Source of the DNA: Thermococcus cleftensis
GTDB taxonomy: Archaea > Methanobacteriota_B > Thermococci > Thermococcales > Thermococcaceae
NCBI RefSeq assembly: GCF_000265525.1
Contig: NC_018015.1
Coordinates: 966,322-1,030,321, forward strand
Length of the DNA stretch: 64,000 bases
Direction: 5' to 3'
Numbering within the stretch: the stretch's first letter is position 1; each line of letters opens with the position of its first letter. Below the pieces are notes generated by a model. The model worked only from the letters and a program-made list of their open reading frames with translations. It had not been told where the DNA came from and did no database searches. A program made the translations under genes and the position numbers. Positions 4,792 through 57,449 of the stretch are shown here, one piece after another.

Positions 4792-4975
4792 AACGCCGAT
4801 CCCACTCACCGAGCTTGAGGAACTCGCCAAGAGGGCCGGAGCGGACGTTAAGCTCACCCTCGTCGGAAAGAGCGGGAGGAACGACATCGTCCTCAACAGG
4901 GTTCTCGTTGAAGGCCCGGAGGAAGAAATCGAGCGCTTCATGGAGAAGCTCAGGCTCGCGAGGGCCGGTGGCTGA
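4778..4975 (+). CDS. Small conserved-looking protein of unknown function
   Basis: A 65-residue protein starting at TTG 4778, supported by GGAGGTT at 4766-4772, five nt upstream and inside the end of the ATPase gene. The sequence alternates strands and helices (VKLTLVGKS ... VLVEGPEEEIERFMEKL), resembling a small ACT- or ferredoxin-like beta-alpha-beta unit, but I do not recognise a family. It lies 9 bp upstream of the CPBP protease gene, so it is probably co-transcribed with it. No signal peptide or membrane helix. Confidence 0.7.
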   Translation: MKVIETPIPLTELEELAKRAGADVKLTLVGKSGRNDIVLNRVLVEGPEEEIERFMEKLRLARAGG

Positions 4976-31291: not shown

Positions 31292-32606
<1,315 letters not shown>

Positions 32607-33764: not shown

Positions 33765-34724
33765 GTGAGGCTCGTAGTCCTAGAGGGAAAGGGAAGCACT
33801 CTCGTCTTTGTTCTCATAGCGGTTTTCCTGGTGCTATTCACGGTACCGCTGCTTCACGTTTTCATCAACGCCCCGGGAGGTGAGTTTCTGGCGGTAGGTT
33901 TCCTGGCCGTACTCCTTCTGCTGATGGTTCCCTTAACCCACGGCCTGCTCAGAGGGCGGAGGGAATACCGGCGCGCCAAAGGCCTTGCCAACCTGCTCGT
34001 TGCATCTGATTCGTGGATAACTTTTCCGGAGGAACTTGAATTCGAGACCGGAACGCTCGAGATAAAGGGCCACTGGGTCGGGAGCGGAAGGAACAGGCAC
34101 TACCACGTGGAGAGAAAGTTCATCGCAGAGAGGCGGGACAGGGCGTCAGGGGTTTCGTTTCCCGGGGCGGGTTTCAAGGCGGCCGTTTCACCGGACGGCA
34201 CGGGGTTCATCAGGGCTCCAGCGGTTCGTATAACCGACGGGCCATACAAGAACATCCTGCTGCTCTTCTTCACCAACGAGGGGGAGGTCATGGGAAGCGG
34301 CACGGTGGCGGTTGCCACGGAGAGCGATTCGGCCCAGGTAAACTTCAGGGGGGACGGAAAGTTCATCGCCGGGACGGTCTATTCCACCCTGACCAAGGCG
34401 AGGCGCGTGAAGGTCACCCTCAGCACGAGCGGCTTCGAGTATGAGAAGATAATCGAAGAAGGGCAGAGCTTCGAGTTCAGGGAGAGAATGCTCCCGGAGG
34501 AGAAGGTCACGGTGGTCGGCTCCTACGACACGCTGAGCCCAAGACTCCTTGCAGGAAAGATCGGGAGGGGAACTGTTGTCCTCGGCCACGGCGAGTTCAT
34601 AATCCGGGGAATTCTGGACATACGGCTGAGGCCGGACGTTAAGGCCGAGGGGACCTTCAGGGTTGAGCTGGAGGAAGAAGCCGAGGAAGAAAAGGAGTTC
34701 GAGGAGGGGTGGGGGTTCACCTGA
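33765..34724 (+). CDS. Two-span membrane protein with large cytoplasmic beta domain
   Basis: A 319-residue protein. GTG 33765 follows GGTGA at 33755-33759. Two helices near the N-terminus (STLVFVLIAVFLVLFTVPLL and FLAVGFLAVLLLLMVPLTHG) anchor a ~230-residue beta-rich domain with an acidic Glu-rich tail. The pattern with EGQSFEFRERMLPEEKVTVVG resembles E3-ligase-like (GIDE/MULAN-type) membrane domains distantly, but I would not assign it. It overlaps the convergent trpS by 8 bp. Confidence 0.78.
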   Translation: MRLVVLEGKGSTLVFVLIAVFLVLFTVPLLHVFINAPGGEFLAVGFLAVLLLLMVPLTHGLLRGRREYRRAKGLANLLVASDSWITFPEELEFETGTLEIKGHWVGSGRNRHYHVERKFIAERRDRASGVSFPGAGFKAAVSPDGTGFIRAPAVRITDGPYKNILLLFFTNEGEVMGSGTVAVATESDSAQVNFRGDGKFIAGTVYSTLTKARRVKVTLSTSGFEYEKIIEEGQSFEFRERMLPEEKVTVVGSYDTLSPRLLAGKIGRGTVVLGHGEFIIRGILDIRLRPDVKAEGTFRVELEEEAEEEKEFEEGWGFT

Positions 34725-35868
34725 GAGGCTCAGGAATCGCCCTATCCCACTGCTCCCTTGCCAGCTCACCGGTGTACTTGAACTTCTCTACCTTCTTTTC
34801 CGCCTCTTTGCGCTTCTTCTGGTGCTCCTTCAGGAACTCCTGAACCCTCTCAATCAGCTCGCGCTTGCACTGGCCGCAGAGCAGCTCACCGCTCTTGCAG
34901 GCGTGGTAGCGCTCCATGAGCTTCTCGTCGTCCGGCTCGAAGAATATCTCAAACCACTTGAAGACGACGCACTTCTCGGGCTGACCGCCCTTCTCGCGCT
35001 GCTCCTTCGCCGTCGCCCTCCCGCCGGTTAGGGCGTACTTCCATATTTTCTTGCCAGCCTCTTCTGGGTCGTCGGTGAGGTAGACGGCAGTTTCGGGCTT
35101 GCTGGCGCTCATCTTGCCCTCAAGGCCCATCAATCCCGGAACGAACTTGGAGTGAATTGCGGCTGTCTTGTAGTAGCCGAGGCTCTCGGCGAAGTCCCTC
35201 TGCAGCCTCCAGTAGGGGTCCTGGTCTATGGCAGCAGGAATCAGGCAGCGCTTCCTCTCGAAGAAGGTCGGAGCGGCCTGTATTGCCGGGTAAAAAATCA
35301 TCCCGATCTTGCTCTGCTCTGTGAAGCCGAAGACCGCTTTAGCCATCGAGTAGTTTATCTTCTTCGCTATCGGGATTGCCATCTCGTATATCTTGGTGAA
35401 CTCGCTGTCCTGGAAGATGAAGGTCTTATCCGGGTCGAAGCCGACCGCTATGATGTCCAGTATGTTGTCGTAGGCCCATCTCTTGGTGTCCTCGAAGGTG
35501 AGCTTGTCCTTGAAGAGGAACTTCTCGTCGTCGGTTATCTGGATGTATAGGTTCACGCCGAACTTCTCCTGGAGCCACTTGGTCGCGAAGAATGGTATGA
35601 TGTGGCCTATGTGCATCGGCCCGCTCGGGCCCCTGCCAGTGTAGAGGAAGAAGCCCTTTCCGGACTCGTAATCTGCCAAAACCTTGTCGTAGTCCCTGTG
35701 GGAGAAGAAGAAGCGCCTCCTGAAGTACATCGGCAGCTCGCTCCTCGTAAGCTCCGCGGTCTTCTCAAGCAACTCGTCCGTCATGGGACTCGTTCCGAAC
35801 TCCTCTATAAGCTTCGCGTAGTCCACCATTCCCTCAACGTCCCAGGGGGTGACCTTAAACTCGTCCAT
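34717..35868 (-). CDS. trpS: Tryptophan--tRNA ligase
   Basis: A 383-residue class I aminoacyl-tRNA synthetase of the archaeal/eukaryotic TrpRS type. The HIGH motif appears as MHIGHI (~residue 79) and the KMSKS motif as GKMSAS (~residue 253), with LYIQITDDEKFLFKD forming the Trp pocket region. The C-terminal helical domain contains CGQCKRELIERVQEFL, usual for this branch. It charges tRNA-Trp with tryptophan in the cytoplasm. GGAGGTG lies just before the ATG, and a mini-ORB palindrome sits immediately upstream of it. Confidence 0.97.
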   Translation of the reverse strand: MDEFKVTPWDVEGMVDYAKLIEEFGTSPMTDELLEKTAELTRSELPMYFRRRFFFSHRDYDKVLADYESGKGFFLYTGRGPSGPMHIGHIIPFFATKWLQEKFGVNLYIQITDDEKFLFKDKLTFEDTKRWAYDNILDIIAVGFDPDKTFIFQDSEFTKIYEMAIPIAKKINYSMAKAVFGFTEQSKIGMIFYPAIQAAPTFFERKRCLIPAAIDQDPYWRLQRDFAESLGYYKTAAIHSKFVPGLMGLEGKMSASKPETAVYLTDDPEEAGKKIWKYALTGGRATAKEQREKGGQPEKCVVFKWFEIFFEPDDEKLMERYHACKSGELLCGQCKRELIERVQEFLKEHQKKRKEAEKKVEKFKYTGELAREQWDRAIPEPLR

Positions 35869-35882
35869 TCAAAACACCTCCA

Positions 35883-35895
35883 TTTCCAGTGGAAA
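35883..35895. repeat. Mini-ORB-type palindrome upstream of trpS
   Basis: TTTCCAGTGGAAA, a perfect 13-bp match to the mini-ORB core apart from the central base. It lies directly upstream of the ribosome site of trpS, in the leader or promoter. Orc1/Cdc6 binding is inferred. Confidence 0.5.
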
Positions 35896-35988
35896 CGAAA
35901 CCCAGGGCTAAGCCGGGGCAGAAGAGGAAGGCTTCACCAGGGCCAAAAGCAATCACCAGGCATGGGAAGAGAAAGGAAGGAAGGGGAT

Positions 35989-37398
35989 TTAAAGTTTTCC
36001 ATTCTCCCTCAGCCACTCGCCGTACTTGACGAGGGCATAAACGGCATCGACGCCGTCTTCAACTGTCTCGTAGACGGGGACGCCCTTGAGCTCGATGTTC
36101 CTGGCCATCTTGTGCGGGTAAGCTCCACCAGGGGCCACGAAGACTATCGGCTTGCCGTAAGCTTGCATTCTCTCCATGGCCTCGACGATTCCCTCGTCCA
36201 AAGCGGGGCTCTGGAAGAGAGCTATGACCACGAGGACGTCGACGTTCGGGTCTTCAAGGGCATAGCGCATTGCTATCTCGTACCTGCTCGACGGGGCGTC
36301 GCCTATGACGTCTATCGGGTTTCTGTAGCTCATGTGGTGCGGGAGCTTGCCTTCCTCGATGTCTTTCCTAAAGCGTTCGTTGGTCTCTTCGCTCAGCTCG
36401 GCGAGCTTCATTCCCCTCTCAAGCAGACCGTCACTCATCATGACTCCCGCTCCACCGCCGTTGGTGACTATCGCCACGCGGTTCCCTTTGGCCGGCTTCT
36501 GCATCGCCAGGGCTTTGGCGTAGTTGAAGAGCTGGCGCATGCTCTTGGCGCTGAGAACACCGGTCTGCTCGAAGGCGGCCTCGTATATCTTGTAGGACCC
36601 CGCGAGGGAACCAGTGTGGGAAGCGGCCGCCTTGGCACCTGCCTCAGTCCTTCCAGCCTTGAGGATTATGATGGGCTTCTTGAGCGTGACCTCCTTAGCA
36701 ACGTTGAAGAACTTCCTCCCGTCCTTGACGCCCTCGATGTAGCCGGTGATGACCCCGGTCTTCTCGTCCTCGCCGAGGTACGCTATGAAGTCGCTCTCGT
36801 CGAGGTCGGCCATGTTGCCGAGGCTGATGAACTTGCTCATTCCTATCTTGTGGCTGGCCGCCCAGTCAAGGATTGCCGCACCGAAGGCACCGCTCTGGCT
36901 CATGAAGGCAACCTTTCCAAAGGGCGGCCTGGCCTGTCTCTCCGGCGGGTTGAAGTTGCAGTCAAAGCCGTTCTCAAGGTTCGTAACGCCGAGACAGTTC
37001 GGTCCGACGACCCTTATACCCCACTTCCTCGCACGCCTGACGAGCTCCTCCTCGAGCTCGGCCCTTCCGGCCTCCTTAAAGCCGGCGGAGATGACGACGG
37101 CACCCTTAACGCCCTTCTCGCCGCACTCGTCGATGACGTCGGGGACAAACTTGGCAGGGACAGCTATTACCGCAACATCGACCTCGTCCGGAACGTCCTT
37201 GATGCTCCTGTAAACCGGGAACTTCCTTCCGTTGACCTCTATCTCGCCGCCCTTGACGTTCACGGCGTAGACCTTTCCGTCGTAGCGGAGCGTTATTGAG
37301 CGCATTATGGCGTTTCCAACCTTTCCGGGGACGTTCGATGCCCCGATGACAGCGACGCTTCTCGGGTAAAACAGGAAATCGAGCTTTGGCGCCTCCAT
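35989..37398 (-). CDS. ADP-forming acetyl/acyl-CoA synthetase, alpha subunit
   Basis: A 469-residue alpha subunit. ATG 37398 follows GGAGGTGG. It shows the CoA-binding Rossmann domain (SVAVIGASNVPGKVGNAIM), the ligase/CoA region (VVGPNCLGV, FMSQSGAFG) and the phosphorylated histidine in AASHTGSLAG near residue 260. In Thermococcales, this enzyme turns acyl-CoA from sugar or amino-acid fermentation into acid with ATP formation. The ATP-grasp beta subunit is not adjacent, as usual in this group; several alpha isoforms exist, so acetate versus aryl/branched acid preference is unknown. TATA-like cttaaatac lies near 37436. Confidence 0.93.
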   Translation of the reverse strand: MEAPKLDFLFYPRSVAVIGASNVPGKVGNAIMRSITLRYDGKVYAVNVKGGEIEVNGRKFPVYRSIKDVPDEVDVAVIAVPAKFVPDVIDECGEKGVKGAVVISAGFKEAGRAELEEELVRRARKWGIRVVGPNCLGVTNLENGFDCNFNPPERQARPPFGKVAFMSQSGAFGAAILDWAASHKIGMSKFISLGNMADLDESDFIAYLGEDEKTGVITGYIEGVKDGRKFFNVAKEVTLKKPIIILKAGRTEAGAKAAASHTGSLAGSYKIYEAAFEQTGVLSAKSMRQLFNYAKALAMQKPAKGNRVAIVTNGGGAGVMMSDGLLERGMKLAELSEETNERFRKDIEEGKLPHHMSYRNPIDVIGDAPSSRYEIAMRYALEDPNVDVLVVIALFQSPALDEGIVEAMERMQAYGKPIVFVAPGGAYPHKMARNIELKGVPVYETVEDGVDAVYALVKYGEWLRENGKL

Positions 37399-46125: not shown

Positions 46126-46899
46126 TCAAACAAACATGCTCTTCAGCACGTCGGCGCAGCCGCACTTCCTCTCCTCTGGAATGCGCGGGATGGCCTTCTT
46201 AAGCAACTCCTGAACCTTGTAGTTGTTCTCGGCCATAACGCGGAGGACTTCCTGCGCATCAACAGGTTTGTCGGCCCAGACGTCGTAGTCGGTGACGGTC
46301 GCTATGTTGGCGTAGCACATGCCCAGCTCGCGCGCGAGGTTTATCTCGGGAACGAGAGTCATTCCTATTATGTGGGCGTACTGCCTGAACATGAAGCTCT
46401 CGGCGCGGGTTGAAAAGCGCGGCCCCTCGATGCAGACATAGGTACCCTTCTCGTGAACCGGGAAGCCGAGCTCCTTGGCAGTTTCGTAGAAAATCCTCCT
46501 CATCTCAGGGCAGAATGGGTCGGCCATGCTCACGTGGGCGACGCGCGGTCCATTGTAGAATGTGTAGTCGCGCTTCTTGGTGAAGTCTATGAACTGGTCT
46601 GTTATGACGATGTCTCCGGGCTTGTACTCCTCGCGGAGCGAGCCGACGGCGGTAACGCCTATAACGCGCTCGACGCCGAGCTCCTTAAGGGCCCAGATGT
46701 TCGCGCGGTAGGGAACCTCGTGCGGTGGGAACTCGTGGTGCTTGCCGTGGCGCGGTATGAAAGCCACCTCGACGCCCCCTATCTCCCCGATTTCCACTGG
46801 AGCCGAAGGCCTGCCGTAGGGGGTGTGGACCTTGACCGTCTCCCTCGGCTCGAAGACTCCGTAGACACCGGAGCCACCTATTATCCCAATCCTCGGCAT
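46126..46899 (-). CDS. mtnP: S-methyl-5'-thioadenosine phosphorylase
   Basis: A 257-residue phosphorylase, the length of the Pyrococcus enzyme. ATG 46899 follows GGTGATG. The purine nucleoside phosphorylase-2 family is recognised from [10 protein letters not shown], the phosphate-binding [21 protein letters not shown] (in two parts), [15 protein letters not shown] and a late VTDYDVWA that contacts the purine base. It cleaves MTA (a by-product of polyamine synthesis) to adenine and 5-methylthioribose-1-phosphate. A T-rich stretch on the minus strand follows the stop, near 46090-46120. Confidence 0.95.
46791..46801. repeat. Mini-ORB-like palindrome inside mtnP
   Basis: TTTCCACTGGA; on the minus strand it encodes the residues APVEI near the mtnP N-terminus. 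Confidence 0.4.
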
Positions 46900-46946: not shown

Positions 46947-46958
46947 TTCCAGTGGAAA
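46947..46958. repeat. Mini-ORB palindrome in the mtnP promoter
   Basis: TTCCAGTGGAAA, about 10 bp upstream of the minus-strand TATA-like ttatatg (46932-46937) of mtnP, so a bound protein could influence transcription of that gene. Confidence 0.5.
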
Positions 46959-48361: not shown

Positions 48362-48745
48362 ATGGAGGCGGTGATCTTAGCTGGAATCGCGAGGAGGGTT
48401 CTCGATGAACTCCTCAGGAACCCCTACCGAACGATAGAGCTGAGGAGCGCGAGGAACGTGATGGCAGTCGAGGCGGCCCTACGCGAGGCGATGAGGCTCT
48501 TCCTGACCTACGACCCCTTCGAGGACGTTTCCACTGGAACGGAAGGCCTGCTGGCCGAGCTTATGGAAGCTAAGTATCTGGAGACGAGGATTCCATGGGA
48601 GGAGAGCGACGAGAGGGAGGTAACGATATGCAGGGCAAAGGTTAAGCTCGTAGGCCTTGGGCGTGTGGTGGAAGTCGAGAGGAGAAAGGGGGTTATGCTC
48701 GCGAGGGTCAGGGAGCTGTTTCCCCACGAGATGGACATAGGCTAA
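48362..48745 (+). CDS. Conserved-looking hypothetical protein linked to PAC2
   Basis: A 127-residue mostly helical protein starting at ATG 48362 behind GAGGTGGT. It has an N-terminal helix pair (AGIARRVLDELLRNPYRTIEL) and a C-terminal beta segment (VTICRAKVKLVGLGRVVEVERRKG). No family assigned. It is probably co-transcribed with the PAC2 gene and ends in a 4-bp overlap with convergent nucS. A mini-ORB palindrome lies inside it at 48528. Confidence 0.72.
   Translation: MEAVILAGIARRVLDELLRNPYRTIELRSARNVMAVEAALREAMRLFLTYDPFEDVSTGTEGLLAELMEAKYLETRIPWEESDEREVTICRAKVKLVGLGRVVEVERRKGVMLARVRELFPHEMDIG
48528..48540. repeat. Mini-ORB palindrome in the hypothetical gene
   Basis: TTTCCACTGGAAC, encoding the residues VSTGT on the plus strand. 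Confidence 0.5.
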
Positions 48746-49529: not shown

Positions 49530-50594
49530 TCAGTCCTCGACGCCCCTGTCGGTGATGCGGAATATGGCCTCTCCCTCGGGCAGGTGCGGGCTGTCTATCA
49601 GGCGAGCAACCCTCTTTCCGGCCTTGCCCTTCCTCAGGTAGATTCTCAGCGTCGCGCTGTGGGCCAAGATGTGACCGCCGACAGGCCTCGTCGGGTCGCC
49701 GAAGAAGGCATCTGGCTTGGCCTGAACCTGGTTGGTAACGAAGACGGCTATGTCGTAGAGGTCCGCTATCCTGTGCAGGTCGGCGAGGTGCTTGGCCAGC
49801 TTCTGCTGCCTCTCCGCCAGCGTTCCCCTGCCGACGTACTCGCTCCTGAAGTGGGCCATCAGGGAATCGACGACAAGGAGCTTGACCGGCCTGTCCGTCT
49901 CGGCCTTCTCCTTGATTATCTCCTCCGCCCTCTCGACGAGGAGCATCTGGTGGTTGCTGTTGAAGGCTCTAGCCACGTAGATGTTCTTGAGGGTCTCGTC
50001 GGGATCGAGGCCGCGGTTTTCAGCTATCTGCCTTATTCTCTCGGGCCTGAAGGTGTTCTCGGTATCGATCCAGATCACCGAGCCGCCAAGACCGCCCTCC
50101 TCGGGCGGAAGCTGAACCATCACCGCCAGCGTGTGGGCCAGCTGGGTCTTTCCAGAACCGAACTCTCCGAAGACCTCGGTTATGGCCTGGGTCTCAATAC
50201 CACCCCCCAGGAGCTTGTCGAGGCTCTTGCTTCCAGTGGAGATCCTGCCTATGGTTTTTCGCTTCTCCATGTACTCGTCAGCGCGCATGAAGGTTCCTAT
50301 GTTGGCGGCCTCTCTCGCGGCCTGGATTATCTTGAGAGCAGCGCCCTCGCTTATTCCCGCTATCTCCTTGAGCTCCATGGGGGAGGCAACGGCTATGGCC
50401 TCGATGCTGTCGTAGCCAGCCTCGCGGAGCTTTTCAGCGGTGGCCGGCCCAACGCCCGGCAGGTCCTCAAGGGTCTTTATTTCCTTCTCCTTCTTTTTCT
50501 TGGTTGAGCTTGAAGCGGACTCCTCAACGACCTCGAGCTCCTCGAACTCCTCGAGCTCTTTTATTTCATCTTCGGCCTTCTTCTTCCTCGCCAT
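49530..50594 (-). CDS. radA: DNA repair and recombination protein RadA
   Basis: A 354-residue RecA/Rad51-family recombinase. ATG 50594 follows GGGTGAT. The order is an acidic N-terminus, a helix-hairpin-helix domain ([21 protein letters not shown] ... [16 protein letters not shown]), the polymerisation motif GTFMRADE and the ATPase core with Walker [10 protein letters not shown] (~residue 141) and Walker [10 protein letters not shown], and loop regions around [13 protein letters not shown]. It forms filaments on ssDNA for strand exchange. No intein. A mini-ORB-like sequence at 50231 encodes ISTGS, a conserved RadA segment. Confidence 0.97.
50231..50241. repeat. Mini-ORB-like palindrome inside radA
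   Basis: TTCCAGTGGAG; on the minus strand it encodes STGS ahead of the Walker A motif. Possibly only codon choice. Confidence 0.35.
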
Positions 50595-50643: not shown

Positions 50644-51678
50644 TTATATACTTTTCTTCGGATTCACACCCCCTCCACCCGCGGGCCTAATGACTACCAG
50701 CTTGGCCCCCTCAGGGATTCTCTCATCAAGAGGCGGGTTAAGAACAGGCTTGTCCGTGTAGTAACCCAATAAGAAGTAGCCATTCTCTTCATGGAGCTTC
50801 CGAAGAGCCTCAATGTACGTTGAACCCCAGAGGTCCCGCCGGAGAAGCACCGAGATGTCGTAACGGCCGAGAGAAGTGGTAAGGTCATCTATAACGTCCA
50901 CTACCTCGGGCTCAAACACCGAGCTCGCGAGAAGCCTTCCGGCGAAGCTCCTGCTCAGTATCACCCTGTCCGCCCCGGCCTGCTTCAGTAGCTCGACGCT
51001 CTCGGCCTTGAGGGCCTCCACGAGAACCCTGGCCTTTGACATGCGCTTTATCATGAGCGTTGAGAAGACGGACTTGGAGTCGTCTTCGAGGGCAAGGATC
51101 ACGTGGGAAGCCTCCCTGATGTGGGCCCTCTCCAGGGTCTCCGGATTCGTGGGGTCCCCTATGAGAACCTCCACTTCCTCTGGAAGCTCAATCCCCTTGC
51201 GCTCTTCCTCGTTGGGGAACACCACCACTATGGGCTTAGGCTCGGCATCTCCACTGGAAATGGCAGAGATGAGCTCGTTCACACAGCTCGGCACGCTGCT
51301 CCCCTGACCGATAACAACGTAATGACCGGAGTACTTAACGCGGTGCATGCCCATCATCCTCCTCAAAGACGATGAAATGAAGTACTCGGCCAGAATCGAC
51401 ACGAGGGCGGTGAAAGTTGAGATTCCCGCCACTGCAGCCACCATTGCCACGGCCCTGCCCGCGGAGGTCTGGGGTGTCACGTCGCCGTAGCCAATCGTCG
51501 CCATCGTGATGACGGCCCAGTAGAAGGCCGTGTAGAAGTCCAAACCCTCGAAGTAGGCGAACAGGGAGGCGAAAAGCAGGGCCAGCAGGAGTACGGCCAT
51601 CGCTATCTGGAGGAGTCTGTTCCGGCCGATCTTGATTTTCACCTTCAGCAGCTTCCTTACAAGTGGAACCGGAATCAT
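50644..51678 (-). CDS. Potassium channel protein with RCK (TrkA-N) domain, MthK-like
   Basis: A 344-residue membrane protein. Two helices frame the selectivity filter TIGYGD (~residue 63-68) and pore helix FYWAVITMA. The cytoplasmic part has an RCK/TrkA-N Rossmann domain (HYVVIGQGSSVPSCVNEL ... VEVLIGDPTNPETLERA, with GxGxxG-like and Asp loop) and a TrkA-C-like end. RCK channels gate K+ flow on Ca2+ or nucleotide binding; Thermococcales hold very high internal K+. It is the gene on the left flank of the origin region. Confidence 0.93.
   Translation of the reverse strand: MIPVPLVRKLLKVKIKIGRNRLLQIAMAVLLLALLFASLFAYFEGLDFYTAFYWAVITMATIGYGDVTPQTSAGRAVAMVAAVAGISTFTALVSILAEYFISSSLRRMMGMHRVKYSGHYVVIGQGSSVPSCVNELISAISSGDAEPKPIVVVFPNEEERKGIELPEEVEVLIGDPTNPETLERAHIREASHVILALEDDSKSVFSTLMIKRMSKARVLVEALKAESVELLKQAGADRVILSRSFAGRLLASSVFEPEVVDVIDDLTTSLGRYDISVLLRRDLWGSTYIEALRKLHEENGYFLLGYYTDKPVLNPPLDERIPEGAKLVVIRPAGGGGVNPKKSI
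51248..51261. repeat. Mini-ORB-like palindrome inside the channel gene
   Basis: TCTCCACTGGAAAT; on the minus strand it encodes ISSGD in a variable linker of the RCK domain. Confidence 0.45.
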
Positions 51679-51720
51679 GTTATACCTTACGAGGGGGATT
51701 TTAAAAACCTATCACCAATG

Positions 51721-51743
51721 CCCCCCAAGGTTCATCAATGGAG
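51721..51743 (-). repeat. Degenerate ORB
   Basis: On the minus strand CTCCATTGATGAACC is followed by the run TTGGGGGG, matching the ORB layout (dyad, spacer, G-run) with a poor dyad. Confidence 0.45.
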
Positions 51744-51748
51744 CGTTT

Positions 51749-51762
51749 TTTCCAGTGGAAAC
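51749..51762. repeat. Mini-ORB in oriC
   Basis: TTTCCAGTGGAAAC, a strong match to the mini-ORB core bound by Orc1/Cdc6. Confidence 0.7.
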
Positions 51763-51790
51763 AGAGGTCTTTTTCGATGGCCATCTGAAA

Positions 51791-51821
51791 GACCCCCCAG
51801 AGTTTCATTTCCACTGGAGCT
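51791..51821 (-). repeat. Origin recognition box (left, inverted)
   Basis: Read on the minus strand: AGCTCCAGTGGAAATG, then AAACTCT, then GGGGGGTC. Dyad, AAAC spacer and G-run all match the archaeal ORB consensus. Confidence 0.85.
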
Positions 51822-51839
51822 CAGTTTTGCAGATGGACG

Positions 51840-52060
51840 GATTTTCGCGGCTAGAAAGATGAAAGGAGTGTTTATAAACAATCTTTCGAACATCAAATAA
51901 GCAGATTTAAAAACAAGCTCTGAGTTTTGTAGTCTTTCGTTCATTACTATTCAGAGATTTGGGGATTTTATGAACATTGTTCATGAAAATGTATAAATAC
52001 CAAAAGTTTAAAAGAAAACGGGAGAGTTTCACCAAAAAGACAAAAAATTACGGGAGTAGC
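51840..52060. other. Probable duplex-unwinding element
   Basis: A markedly AT-rich run between the two inverted ORBs, containing A/T tracts such as ttaaaaac, tttatgaac and aaaagtttaaaagaaa. It is the most likely site of initial melting. No ORF with a ribosome site lies here. Confidence 0.6.
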
Positions 52061-52070
52061 CAAAACCTGG

Positions 52071-52100
52071 CTCCAGTGGAAATAAAACTCCCAGGGGGTA
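52071..52100 (+). repeat. Origin recognition box (right)
   Basis: On the plus strand: CTCCAGTGGAAATAAAAC, then TCCCA, then GGGGGTA. Facing the left ORB, it brackets the AT-rich segment, as Orc1 orientation would demand for melting. Confidence 0.85.
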
Positions 52101-52206
52101 TTGAAGTGTTTAACTTTTCTAAATTGCAAAACACTTTTGTTTACCATGAATGTCTAAAACAGTCCACCAATGTCCGTATTTTAATGTTCATTTAAGTTCA
52201 TTCACC

Positions 52207-52221
52207 TTTCAGTGGAAATGA
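52207..52221. repeat. Mini-ORB variant in oriC
   Basis: TTTCAGTGGAAATGA, the mini-ORB core with one C missing from the left arm. Confidence 0.5.
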
Positions 52222-52385
52222 TCGTTTGATTTCATCTGAACATTTACAAACCTAAAATTCCGCTGTACATTTATGGGCGCTTAACCCCTTTGCTTCCTGT
52301 GGAGAACGAAGGCTCGGGTTTGCCTGTGCCGTTTCAAGTGCAAAGTTAATTAACCTACATCGCATAGTATTCTTCGGTGGTTTCC

Positions 52386-53009
52386 ATGGACGACATCGAG
52401 GTTCAGGTTCTTGAGTGGCTTCGGGAGGGTGACGACACTGCCCAGGACATAGTGGATCTCCCCTGGTCCGTCAGGGAAGTTCAACCTGGGACTTATCTGG
52501 CCGAACACCCGAGAATGCCGTTCTCTCTCCTTGTGGTGTTCTCAGAGGGCTTTGTCCACCTACTAGTGCCTATGGGTCTCGAGACATTCTCCATGTCCAA
52601 CAACGAGAAGTTGAGGGTGTATCATACCCTCCTTCGTCTCAACGACCAGGTGAATCTGATGAAGTTCACTCTCTCAGGAATGGACGATGACGTCTATCTT
52701 CGCGTGGATCTTGACAAGAAGACTCTTGGCAAGGACGAGTTCAACGATGCGCTCACGGCTTTGCTAATAGGCCTTATGTCCGCGGTATCAGCCATGGGGC
52801 TGGAAGAGGCCTTCGAAAGAGAAATCTTTGACCGCATCGTTGGAATGGTTCTTGAGAGGGTTGAGCGCGGCGCCAGCAGGGACGAACTTATGAGGTTCCT
52901 GACCGTCAAGGTCGGTATGAGCGTTGAGGACGCAAAAAACCTGCTCAACGAGGTGTTCGCGGCCAAGAAAGAAATTGATGGGCAGGGGGAAGACGTTGGG
53001 TACTTCTGA
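52386..53009 (+). CDS. YbjN-like small protein (first of two tandem paralogues)
   Basis: A 207-residue cytoplasmic protein. ATG 52386 follows CGGTGG. Residues ~1-130 have the pattern of YbjN / type III secretion chaperone-like folds: PFSLLVVFSEGFVHLLVP, then VYHTLLRLNDQVNLMKFTLSG and the long helix DEFNDALTALLIGLMS. The C-terminal third is helical and acidic (a second paralogue motif, ELMRFLTVKVGMSVEDAKNLL). Function unknown. It is transcribed away from oriC, with the second copy 146 bp downstream. Confidence 0.8.
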   Translation: MDDIEVQVLEWLREGDDTAQDIVDLPWSVREVQPGTYLAEHPRMPFSLLVVFSEGFVHLLVPMGLETFSMSNNEKLRVYHTLLRLNDQVNLMKFTLSGMDDDVYLRVDLDKKTLGKDEFNDALTALLIGLMSAVSAMGLEEAFEREIFDRIVGMVLERVERGASRDELMRFLTVKVGMSVEDAKNLLNEVFAAKKEIDGQGEDVGYF

Positions 53010-53154: not shown

Positions 53155-53766
53155 GTGACTGATATTGAAACGCAGGTTCTTGAGTGGCTCAGGACGGGCA
53201 GAGAAGATGCCGCCGACATAGTTGATCTCCCCTGGGAGGTCAAGGCGGTTGGAGAGTCCGTGTACGTTGCCGAGCATCCCAAGATGCCTTTCACCCTCGT
53301 GGTCATGTTCTCCGACGAGTTTGTTCACCTTGTGATCCCCACGAGCCTTGAAACCTACGGCCTGGGCGATGAGGACAGGCTCTACGTTTACCACACCCTC
53401 CTTGAGCTGAACGATAGGATATACATGATGAAGTTCAGCCTTGGGAGGCCCAACGACGTTGTTAACATCCGTGTTGACCTCGACAAGAAGACCCTTGGCA
53501 AGGAGGAATTCAACGACGCCCTGACTGCCCTGGCGATTGGCCTTCTCTCGGGAGTTTCCGCCCTCGGACTCGAGGAGGAGTTCGTTGAGAGGATATTCGA
53601 CCGCATCGTCGTCATGCTCCTTGAGAGGATTCAGAAGGGCTACACCTACGAGCAGCTCATGGAGTTCCTCACCATCAAGGTCGGGCTTGCGGAGAAGGAC
53701 GCCAAGGAACTTCTCGACGCCGTTCTTGAAGCTGTGGAAGAAGAGCCTGCCGGGGAAGATGGTTGA
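53155..53766 (+). CDS. YbjN-like small protein (second paralogue)
   Basis: A 203-residue paralogue of the previous gene, sharing the same start (xTDIEVQVLEWLR versus MDDIEVQVLEWLR), the DIVDLPW segment, the KKTLGKxEFNDALTAL helix and the C-terminal ELMEFLTIKVGL end. GTG 53155 follows GAGGTGAT. It has its own TATA (gtttataaac near 53113). The pair is next to orc1/cdc6 and may work as a heterodimer; a link with replication is inferred only from location. Confidence 0.8.
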   Translation: MTDIETQVLEWLRTGREDAADIVDLPWEVKAVGESVYVAEHPKMPFTLVVMFSDEFVHLVIPTSLETYGLGDEDRLYVYHTLLELNDRIYMMKFSLGRPNDVVNIRVDLDKKTLGKEEFNDALTALAIGLLSGVSALGLEEEFVERIFDRIVVMLLERIQKGYTYEQLMEFLTIKVGLAEKDAKELLDAVLEAVEEEPAGEDG

Positions 53767-54045: not shown

Positions 54046-55293
54046 ATGGACGACAACTACCTCGATTCGATCTTCGAGAAGTATCTCCACGCCAAGAAGA
54101 TATTCAAGAACAAGGAAGTGCTCAGGCATAGCTACACTCCCAAGGAGCTTCCCCACAGGCGCGAGCAGATAGAGGAGCTGGCTCACATTCTAGTTCCCGT
54201 CCTGCGCGGTGAGACGCCTTCAAACGTTTTCGTGTACGGGAAGACTGGAACGGGTAAGACCGTCACCATAAAGTTCGTCACAGAGGAGCTGAAAAAGATA
54301 TCCGACAAGTATCGGATTCCCGTCGATGTCATCTACATAAACTGCGAGATAGTGGATACCCAGTACCGCGTTCTGGCCAACATCGTGAACTATTTCAAAG
54401 ACGAGAGTGGTGTGGAGGTTCCTCTCGTCGGCTGGCCGACAGACGAGGTTTACGCGAGACTGAAGGAGGTTATAGATGCGCGTGAGCGCTTCGTCATAAT
54501 AGTCCTGGACGAGATTGACAAGCTCATCAAGAAGAGCGGCGACGACATACTCTACTCCCTCACGAGGATAAATACCGAGCTGTCCAGGGCCAAGGTTAGC
54601 ATAATCGGCATCTCCAACGACCTAAAGTTCAAGGAGTATCTCGACGCACGTGTTCTCTCGAGCCTGAGTGAGGAGGAGGTTGTCTTTCCGCCTTACGACG
54701 CCAACCAGCTCAGGGATATTCTCCTCCAGCGTGCCAAAGATGCCTTCAACGAGGGCGTTCTCGACGACGGTGTCGTTCCCCTCTGTGCCGCCCTGGCCGC
54801 TCGCGAGCATGGTGATGCGAGAAGGGCCCTTGACCTGCTCCGCGTTGCGGGTGAGATAGCGGAGCGCGAGGGGGCTAGTAAAGTAACGGAGAGGCACGTC
54901 TGGAAGGCCCAGGAGAAGATAGAGCAGGACACGATGGAGGAGGTCATAAAAACCCTTCCCCTCCACTCGAAGGTTCTCCTCTACGCCATCGTTCTCCTCG
55001 ACGAGAACGGCGAGTTGCCTGCCAACACCGGCGACGTTTACTCGGTTTACATGTCCCTCTGCGACCACATAGACCTCGAGCCCCTCACCCAGAGGCGCGT
55101 CAGCGATCTGATAAACGAGCTCGACATGCTTGGCATCATCAACGCCAAGGTCGTCAGTAAGGGCCGCTACGGCAGGACGAAAGAGATACGGCTCAACGTA
55201 ACACCTTATAAGGTGAAGAACATATACCGCCACGACCCGCAGCTCCAGACCCTGCTCACGATTAGCATGTCCCGCCAGAGGAGGCTGCTCTGA
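54046..55293 (+). CDS. cdc6: Origin recognition/initiator protein Orc1/Cdc6
   Basis: A 415-residue AAA+ initiator, the usual archaeal length. ATG 54046 follows GGTGG; the upstream in-frame codons lie in the leader. Motifs are Walker A GKTGTGKTV (~residue 67), Walker B VIIVLDEIDKL (~150), sensor 1 IIGISND, the sensor 2 arginine in HGDARRALDLL and a C-terminal winged helix (~315-400) that reads ORBs. It melts the origin and loads MCM. The stop overlaps the DP1 start by one base (TGATG), making one operon with the DNA polymerase D subunits. Confidence 0.97.
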   Translation: MDDNYLDSIFEKYLHAKKIFKNKEVLRHSYTPKELPHRREQIEELAHILVPVLRGETPSNVFVYGKTGTGKTVTIKFVTEELKKISDKYRIPVDVIYINCEIVDTQYRVLANIVNYFKDESGVEVPLVGWPTDEVYARLKEVIDARERFVIIVLDEIDKLIKKSGDDILYSLTRINTELSRAKVSIIGISNDLKFKEYLDARVLSSLSEEEVVFPPYDANQLRDILLQRAKDAFNEGVLDDGVVPLCAALAAREHGDARRALDLLRVAGEIAEREGASKVTERHVWKAQEKIEQDTMEEVIKTLPLHSKVLLYAIVLLDENGELPANTGDVYSVYMSLCDHIDLEPLTQRRVSDLINELDMLGIINAKVVSKGRYGRTKEIRLNVTPYKVKNIYRHDPQLQTLLTISMSRQRRLL

Positions 55294-57449
55294 TGGGCCT
55301 GATAGAGGACTTAATGACAAACCGCTATCTAATAACTCCTTCCGCCTACTATCTTCTCGCCGACGGCTATAAGAGGGACTTCACGCTCGCCGAGCTGATA
55401 AAGTTTGCCAAGGCTAGGGGAACCTTTGTAATAGACTCCTCCATCGCAAGGGAGTTCCTCGAGATGAAAGGGGGCGTTCCATTGGAAGTTCCCTCTCCCT
55501 CCGAGCCGCAGCCGTCCGCCGAAACTGGTGAGGGAATCTTGGAGGATTCTGGTGGTGTGGTTGAATATCGGGAAGAACAATCCCATTCTGTGGATTCGGC
55601 CGGGGATAGTGCTTCGTTGTCAGAGATCAGTGACGTCGGGGAAGATTCGGCCGATAGGTCAGGCACGTTGATTTCCACTGGAAATGCCGAAGAAATCCTC
55701 TCCAAAACACCTTCCTTTTCACAATTGGAGCAAGAAAAATCCCACTTCTTCGGGGGGGAGAGTTCTATTTCCACTGGAACTTCGGTCAGCGAGACCTCCA
55801 GTGATGAATCCGGTGAGGGTGTGGCCGAGGTTTCTGGAGAGGTGCTTCCAGTGGAAGATGTCCGGACTGAAAACAGTTCCACCGAATCTGACGTCCTCCT
55901 AGAGGATAATCCTTTGGAGAATAGCTCCCAAGGCCCCCTTGTTGCTGAAAATGAGTATGCCAACGGGAGCGGCTACGGGGACAGTGAGGAGTATTATGAG
56001 AACGGCAATGGGGTCAAGCCGAAGATCGTTTACGGTGACTACGGGGTTCCAATAGCCTACGTTGGAGATGAGGTGCTGGAGGAAGAAAAGAGCTACTCGG
56101 TTTACCGCGACGTTGTGATAACCCCGAGGGAGGGGTTCGTTTACCGGGCTAGGGAGATCCCTGACGACTGGGAGCTGGTCTTCGACGTCAAGGACGTGAA
56201 GTTCGAGGTCCCCAAGGTGAAGAGCGCCGCGAGCAAGGAAGGGGAGATAATAGTCAAGGTGTATGCTGACTACTTTAAGAGTCGGCTGAGGAAGATGCGC
56301 CGGATCCTCCGCGAGAACCCAGAGCTCGGAAGTGTCATAGACATCGGCAAGCTGAGCTACGTGGGCGGCGATGAGGAGGTAACCATAATAGGCCTCATCA
56401 ACAGCAAGAAGGAAACGGCCAAGGGCTTCATGTTCGAGGTCGAGGACAACACGGGGATAATCAAGGTCTTCATAAACCGCAACAACGAGGAGAGCAGGAA
56501 GTTCTTCCAGATAATGCCCGACTCTGTCGTTGCCTTCCGTGGCCGCTATTCCAGAAGGGGTCTCTTCTTCGCTGACAAGATATTCCTCCCAGACGTCCCC
56601 AAGTTCAAGCGTGAGAAGCCCCCGTTGGAGGAGAAGGTTTACGCGATCCTCTTGAGCGATATCCACGTTGGCTCTAACAAGTTCTGCGAGAAGGCCTTTG
56701 AAAGGTTCCTCGAGTGGCTCAACGGTGAGGTGAACAACAGGAAGGAAGAGGAGCTGGTCAGTAGGATAAAGTACATGATAATCGCCGGCGACGTGGTTGA
56801 TGGGATAGGCATCTATCCCGGCCAGTACAACGAGCTGGCGATTCCCGATATCTTTGACCAGTATGAGGCCCTAACGAACCTTCTCCGCAACGTTCCGGAT
56901 CACATAACCACCTTCATCGGCCCTGGCAACCACGATGCCGCTAGAACGGCCCTGCCTCAGCCGGGCTTCTACGACGAATACGCCCGTCCACTGAAGAGGC
57001 TAAAGAACGCGGTCATAATAAGCAACCCCGCCGTGATAAGGCTCCACGGCAGGGACTTCCTCATAGCTCACGGTAGGGGCATAGAAGACGTCGTCACCGC
57101 TCTCCCGAACAGGAGCCACCACAGGCCTGCGGAGGCGATGCTTGACCTGCTGAAGCTCCGCCATCTCGCGCCGACCTTCGGGGAGAAGGTTCCCATAGCG
57201 CCTGACCCCGAGGACACGCTCGTCATAGAGTCGGTTCCCGACCTCTTCCAGGCCGGCCACGTCCACGTCATGGAGTACAGGATTTACAACGGCGTCTTCC
57301 TGATAAACACCGGCACCTGGCAGGCCCAGACGGAGTTCCAGAAGATGGTGAACATCGTGCCGACCCCTGCGAGGGTCCCGATAATAGACGTTGAGACCGC
57401 CCGTCTCCGCGCCGTCGTGAGGTTCGACCAGTTCTGCGAGGGGGTTTGA
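55293..57449 (+). CDS. polB: DNA polymerase D small subunit DP1 (3'-5' exonuclease)
   Basis: A 718-residue exonuclease subunit. Residues ~1-60 form an N-terminal helical domain; ~65-265 are a Ser/Glu-rich, low-complexity linker; an OB-fold follows (~340-440, EVTIIGLINSKKETAKGF). The calcineurin-like phosphodiesterase core (~445-715) shows DIH (D456, H458), GDVVDG, GNHD (N546, H547), AHGRG and GHVHV, the metal-dependent Mre11-like proofreading site. DP1 pairs with DP2. The linker carries several mini-ORB palindromes. The next gene starts immediately after the stop. Confidence 0.97.
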   Translation: MGLIEDLMTNRYLITPSAYYLLADGYKRDFTLAELIKFAKARGTFVIDSSIAREFLEMKGGVPLEVPSPSEPQPSAETGEGILEDSGGVVEYREEQSHSVDSAGDSASLSEISDVGEDSADRSGTLISTGNAEEILSKTPSFSQLEQEKSHFFGGESSISTGTSVSETSSDESGEGVAEVSGEVLPVEDVRTENSSTESDVLLEDNPLENSSQGPLVAENEYANGSGYGDSEEYYENGNGVKPKIVYGDYGVPIAYVGDEVLEEEKSYSVYRDVVITPREGFVYRAREIPDDWELVFDVKDVKFEVPKVKSAASKEGEIIVKVYADYFKSRLRKMRRILRENPELGSVIDIGKLSYVGGDEEVTIIGLINSKKETAKGFMFEVEDNTGIIKVFINRNNEESRKFFQIMPDSVVAFRGRYSRRGLFFADKIFLPDVPKFKREKPPLEEKVYAILLSDIHVGSNKFCEKAFERFLEWLNGEVNNRKEEELVSRIKYMIIAGDVVDGIGIYPGQYNELAIPDIFDQYEALTNLLRNVPDHITTFIGPGNHDAARTALPQPGFYDEYARPLKRLKNAVIISNPAVIRLHGRDFLIAHGRGIEDVVTALPNRSHHRPAEAMLDLLKLRHLAPTFGEKVPIAPDPEDTLVIESVPDLFQAGHVHVMEYRIYNGVFLINTGTWQAQTEFQKMVNIVPTPARVPIIDVETARLRAVVRFDQFCEGV
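55477..55487. repeat. Mini-ORB variant at the start of the DP1 linker
   Basis: TTCCATTGGAA, a one-mismatch form of the core. Confidence 0.35.
55671..55685. repeat. Mini-ORB palindrome in the DP1 linker (1)
   Basis: ATTTCCACTGGAAAT, a perfect 15-bp dyad apart from the central base, encoding ISTGN. Confidence 0.6.
55767..55780. repeat. Mini-ORB palindrome in the DP1 linker (2)
   Basis: ATTTCCACTGGAAC, encoding ISTGT. A G-run (55751-55757) lies just upstream on the plus strand; on the other strand the dyad is followed by an AACTCT spacer and C rather than G, unlike a real ORB. Confidence 0.6.
55845..55857. repeat. Mini-ORB palindrome in the DP1 linker (3)
   Basis: CTTCCAGTGGAAG, a perfect 13-bp dyad apart from the central base, encoding LPVED. 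Confidence 0.55.

Follow-up and report, generated by a model that had tools for sequence, protein, structure and literature searches.

The closest described replication origins are those of Pyrococcus abyssi and P. furiosus, where the sole origin lies next to the PolD genes and the only cdc6 gene, and where ORBs and mini-ORBs surround an AT-rich region (PMC4010727, PMC2643942); the archaeal ORB consensus is CTTCCAGTGGAAACGAAAGGGGT (PMC4153887). Thermococcus kodakarensis possesses a P. furiosus-like origin, and both cdc6 and oriC can be deleted in this species without phenotype (PMC5663688). In T. barophilus, oriC is used mostly outside mid-log phase and RadA is needed, with a growth-phase shift between oriC and recombination (PMC11005403); the extent of oriC use in related species varies by growth phase (PMC11005403, PMC5663688). 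In the more distant Sulfolobus, a motif termed ucm lies midway between the ORBs, is needed for firing of oriC1, and is bound by the protein UBP (PMC12141716). SegB sites of Sulfolobales are short, many of them intragenic, and clustered near one chromosomal region (PMC12284271).

We analyzed a 64,000-nucleotide stretch (hereafter the window) corresponding to C1:966322-1030321 of a closed 1,950,313-bp Thermococcus chromosome; positions below are those of the window unless stated otherwise. A preliminary description had proposed a replication origin at 51679-52385. We find that this region possesses the box and core anatomy of an origin, lies near the genome's single orc1/cdc6 initiator gene, is conserved across the genus, and coincides with a pivot in GGGT skew, all of which support the proposal. 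The best explanation for the region, with a probability of about 0.93, is that it is the chromosomal oriC of this Thermococcus species and of the canonical Thermococcales type, an assignment supported at every point that can be tested on sequence.

The origin region and its core

The features of the region and of its right-hand flank are as follows:

51679-52385, no strand: oriC intergenic region, AT-rich, with a phylogenetic footprint across 24 genomes
51750-51761, plus: mini-ORB, exact TTCCAGTGGAAA, forming an inverted pair with the left ORB
51793-51819, minus: left ORB CTCCAGTGGAAATGAAACTCTGGGGGG, G-run leftward, away from the core; kept in 24/24 genomes
51828-52062, no strand: AT-rich core, candidate unwinding element; 235 bp, 33.6% GC
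51971-51983, no strand: palindrome TGAACATTGTTCA, inside the core and found once in the genome
51992-51999, plus: TATA-like TATAAATA, 8 bp right of the palindrome; TATA/TAAAA-like in 24/24 genomes
52071-52098, plus: right ORB CTCCAGTGGAAATAAAACTCCCAGGGGG, G-run rightward, away from the core; kept in 24/24 genomes
52207-52218, plus: mini-ORB TTTCAGTGGAAA, one mismatch, in conserved columns
52294-52305, plus: degenerate box TTCCTGTGGAGA, in conserved columns
52386-53009, plus: YbjN-like gene 1 (PF10722), between oriC and cdc6
53158-53766, plus: YbjN-like gene 2, a paralogue of gene 1, between oriC and cdc6
54046-55293, plus: orc1/cdc6 initiator (NF001625 equivalog), sole copy in the genome
55293-57449, plus: PolD small subunit DP1, with initiator boxes in its variable linker

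The two boxes combining a dyad with a G-run, initially placed at 51791-51821 (minus) and 52071-52100 (plus), are confirmed at 51793-51819 and 52071-52098, and contain exact matches to the ORB 20-mer at 51800-51819 (minus) and 52071-52090 (plus). This 20-mer has four matches in the window when at most three mismatches are tolerated, versus 0.01 expected from shuffled sequences. In a scan of 844 kb, the ORB proper, a dyad followed by a G-run, was found just twice, namely at the left and right ORBs. Both are present in 24 of 24 Thermococcus genomes, and in the 23 that were measured their starts are 262-275 bp apart; the 24th genome (G026) carries CTCCACAGGAAACAAAACTCCCTGGGGG at the expected place. 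The ORBs had been called inward-facing, which is valid for the dyad side only: the dyads border the core, but both G-runs point outward, away from it.

The approximately 250 bp of AT-rich DNA previously noted between the boxes corresponds to the 235-bp core, whose GC content (33.6%, versus a genome mean of 55.5%) is below that of 99.8% of 235-bp windows; its least stable 60-bp stretch is 51940-51999. The degenerate third box (52294) and two mini-ORBs (51750 and 52207) of the preliminary description are also real, and all lie in conserved alignment columns. Alignment footprints cover the left mini-ORB/ORB block (51752-51830, the best-conserved block of the region), the core palindrome, the right ORB, and the right mini-ORB.

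The initiator gene had been placed 1.7 kb from the boxes, in agreement with its start at 54046. Together, orc1/cdc6 and oriC are bordered by the PolD genes on one flank; radA and a K-channel gene lie on the other. The region shows the features of the Thermococcales-type origins, with at least two inverted ORBs (dyad plus G-run) flanking an AT-rich element, and with the orc1/cdc6, radA, and polD genes nearby. For each of the two YbjN-like genes, tblastn finds a match close to cdc6 in 13 of 23 relatives; the left ORB and cdc6 are 0.78 to 2.33 kb apart, depending on the genome. No RNA family in Rfam matched within the window. By analogy with Pyrococcus, Sulfolobus, and other Thermococcus species, from which Orc1 binding, melting, MCM loading, and firing are carried over, Orc1/Cdc6 from the adjacent gene would bind both ORBs as well as the mini-ORBs beside them, the AT-rich DNA enclosed by the ORBs would melt, and MCM would be loaded at the melted core, leading to bidirectional replication.

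The core contains a further conserved element. Across the 24 origin regions, the 7-mer TGTTCAT occurs 71 times, versus 3.5 expected. Two copies of it form ATGAACATTGTTCAT at 51970-51984 in this genome, where a scan of 844 kb allowing two mismatches yields no other match. The 13-mer TGAACATTGTTCA has 22 exact matches in 20 of 31 Thermococcus genomes: 17 lie within ~3 kb of cdc6, two are on contigs that lack cdc6, and three are elsewhere. Elements of the ucm type, too, are short conserved motifs located between ORBs within the DUE, a likeness of position only. Most likely, the palindrome would be bound by a further origin factor, in the manner of Sulfolobus ucm; alternatively, it could be the operator for a transcript leaving the origin.

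Skew and use of the origin

We sampled skew in 39 stretches of 20 kb plus the window, together ~43% of the chromosome. On this sampled chromosome, GGGT skew has a turning point at oriC (right minus left 0.089, permutation p 0.008), and the best GGGT-skew diameter falls at chromosome position 1,025,000, versus ~1,018,300 for the candidate origin. The change in sign of GC skew that had been anticipated here did not appear: plain GC skew gives no significant contrast (p 0.29), its minimum lies near 700 kb, and a turning point in plain GC skew is not a defining feature of a Thermococcales-type oriC. A GGGT walk within the window alone was uninformative, with its minimum at 4856.

The comparison genome G011, which we take to be that of T. 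kodakarensis KOD1, has cdc6 at 1,712,158. The homologous locus in this genome coincides with the marker-frequency peak published for T. kodakarensis, at 1,712,000 (PMC11005403).

How far the origin is used cannot be deduced from its sequence, because the homologous origin and cdc6 of T. kodakarensis are dispensable. It is possible, although we would wager against it, that the locus is a conserved but seldom-used origin, with replication started mainly by RadA-dependent recombination and the ORBs kept for stationary-phase or ploidy control. The growth of T. kodakarensis without cdc6 and oriC is in keeping with such a situation, as is the use of T. barophilus oriC mostly outside mid-log phase along with its need for RadA. 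Speaking against it are the strong conservation of the ORBs and core and the detectable GGGT-skew pivot, which implies long-term use of the oriC site.

ORB-core boxes around the origin

While the two ORBs of the preliminary description are real, they are not the sole initiator boxes, because the origin is at the center of a halo of further boxes that had been overlooked. The exact ORB core TTCCAGTGGAAA occurs at eight places in the genome, seven of them inside a 24-kb stretch around oriC. In 16 complete genomes, this core has 154 exact copies. Of these, 128 are located no more than 40 kb from cdc6, versus ~4% expected, and 22 of the remaining 26 are within about 215 kb of it; a reversed control pattern has 0 to 3 matches per genome. 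Many halo copies sit inside genes. For these, we ranked synonymous conservation in 7598 four-codon windows from 22 genes, excluding two antisense ORFs that otherwise took the top ranks:

31834-31845, plus: exact box in the Trm14 gene, rank 1141/7598
46791-46802, minus: box in MTAP, one mismatch, rank 645/7598
48528-48539, minus: exact box in the DUF473 gene, rank 1667/7598
50231-50242, plus: mini-ORB in radA, one mismatch, rank 33/7598
51174-51185, minus: degenerate box in the K-channel gene, two mismatches, rank 44/7598
55672-55683, minus: mini-ORB in DP1, rank 2/7598
55768-55779, minus: ORB-like box in DP1 TTCCAGTGGAAATAGAACTC, rank 1/7598
55846-55857, plus: third box in DP1, one mismatch, rank 168/7598

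Initiator boxes in DP1 were known earlier from four Thermococcales, according to PMC2643942, which cites Matsunaga 2007. The DP1 ORB-like box (55745-55779) carries a C-run on its own strand, CTCTCCCCCCC, where an origin ORB has its G-run, and the same is seen in many relatives. A polarity of the distal boxes (left mostly plus, right mostly minus) was considered and dropped, since it amounts to ~7 versus 4 when counted by independent locus.

In the 7598-window scan, the distal coding boxes at 31834, 46791, and 48528 have no individually significant synonymous conservation, and the rank of the DUF473-gene box gives no evidence of selection. These three ranks (1141, 645, and 1667) are what one would expect if halo boxes were remnants of chance or of gene conservation, functionless outside oriC and DP1. 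We consider this highly improbable given the concentration of exact copies near cdc6 across the 16 genomes, the rarity of matches to the reversed control pattern, and the conserved positions of the boxes found in promoters.

These promoter boxes are ORB-like, lack the G-run, and stand at fixed positions before the MTAP, TrpRS, TPI, and malic enzyme genes:

46947-46958, plus: MTAP promoter box, directly upstream of the TATA element (gene 46126-46899, minus)
35884-35895, plus: TrpRS promoter box, 16 bp upstream of the start codon (gene 34717-35868, minus)
G000:C1:1056058-1056077: TPI promoter box
G000:C1:1219096-1219115: malic enzyme promoter box

The MTAP box is kept in 20 of 24 genomes (here and below, the genomes counted are related by descent and so are not independent events), and the flank farther upstream is unconserved. 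The TrpRS box is found in 30 of 32 genomes, comprising 17/17 with the gene near oriC and 13/15 of the others, and is kept in five genomes in which the gene lies 73-134 kb from cdc6. The TPI box lies upstream of TATA in 15 of 24 genomes; it is present in 14/17 with TPI within 40 kb of cdc6 versus 1/7 with TPI far from it, a difference confounded by a replaced upstream flank. The malic enzyme box, at about -58, occurs in 8 of 19 genomes. Searching the genome with TTCCAGTGGAAAnnAAACTC (18 defined bases, up to one mismatch) yields five sites: both ORBs, the box in DP1, and the boxes of the TrpRS and malic enzyme promoters. G011 possesses both ORBs, the DP1 boxes, and the boxes at the MTAP, TrpRS, and TPI promoters.

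Three further observations concern these genes. A stretch of about 60-70 bp upstream of the TrpRS box (within 35869-35989) is likewise conserved among the genomes. In G026, one internal TAG stop interrupts the malic enzyme reading frame. The 1.52-Mb genome G018 has no MTAP, TrpRS, or TPI box; it keeps the oriC and DP1 boxes and has a box before purF.

An Orc1 transcriptional regulon would be marked by ORB-like boxes conserved at set positions in the promoters of several genes, as is seen here. Neither a pure regulon nor pure origin proximity fits all the data, because the sites follow their genes, as at TrpRS, yet follow the origin in aggregate. The promoter boxes could instead be recognized by a different transcription factor, one with a motif similar to the ORB dyad, and Orc1 would then play no part. 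Such a factor would account for the missing G-run in all four boxes, for the placement of three of the four right before a TATA-like element, a position bound by archaeal activators, and for the TrpRS box staying with its gene far from oriC. We nonetheless think it unlikely: the 18 defined bases of TTCCAGTGGAAAnnAAACTC that the boxes share are the first 20 bp of the ORBs save for single-base variants, and box sites are strongly origin-centered.

The simplest inference is that Orc1 binds ORBs, halo boxes, and promoter boxes alike. Bound most likely by this same Orc1, halo boxes would control downstream genes, or would hold and organize the initiator around the origin; for the promoter boxes, the role may be transcription regulation, Orc1 titration, or organization of origin-proximal DNA.

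While the origin itself is an expected feature, correctly called, it is the single-copy palindrome and the halo, promoter boxes included, that merit a specialist's attention. A literature search that did not include Matsunaga 2007 (Pyrococcus ChIP-chip) found no earlier account of the promoter boxes or the palindrome, and for the Thermococcales core sequence, mini-ORBs, and Orc1 regulation, the only prior report found concerned the DP1 boxes. We tentatively propose, as an idea that may well prove wrong, that Orc1/Cdc6 occupies origin-centered boxes including the MTAP, TrpRS, TPI, and malic enzyme promoters, acting there as a regulator or chromosome organizer, and that the palindrome recruits a further origin factor. 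Given a halo that includes conserved promoter sites, Orc1/Cdc6 would have a function beyond replication, and this wider role, if real, would explain why cdc6 is retained in species that do not need the origin. A standing puzzle would thereby become testable, namely that T. kodakarensis retains cdc6 and ORBs although their loss is visibly harmless. The core palindrome, in turn, offers a concrete handle on a euryarchaeal origin factor comparable to Sulfolobus UBP.

Comparison with known systems

The layout was said to match Pyrococcus oriC, and judged by the published descriptions of Pyrococcus it does: the gene setting is the same, as is the plan of ORBs, mini-ORBs, and AT-rich DNA. Unlike in Pyrococcus, two YbjN-like genes here put 1.7 kb between oriC and cdc6. 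Gene order is identical to that around T. kodakarensis oriC (the TK1901 region). The presumed T. kodakarensis genome (G011) differs in its left ORB, which is only 0.78 kb from cdc6, so that the YbjN-like genes do not fit between them, and the T. kodakarensis origin is dispensable in the laboratory.

As in Sulfolobus oriC1, inverted ORBs flank a DUE with a short conserved motif (PMC12141716), and the palindrome resembles ucm by position only. Unlike the Sulfolobus system, in which UBP binds many chromosomal sites, the Thermococcus palindrome TGAACATTGTTCA occurs once in this genome. Bacterial parS sites are origin-proximal. Like SegB and parS sites, the halo consists of short sites, many of them intragenic, clustered near one chromosomal region; in contrast to SegB and ParB sites, the sequence repeated in the halo is the initiator's own box.
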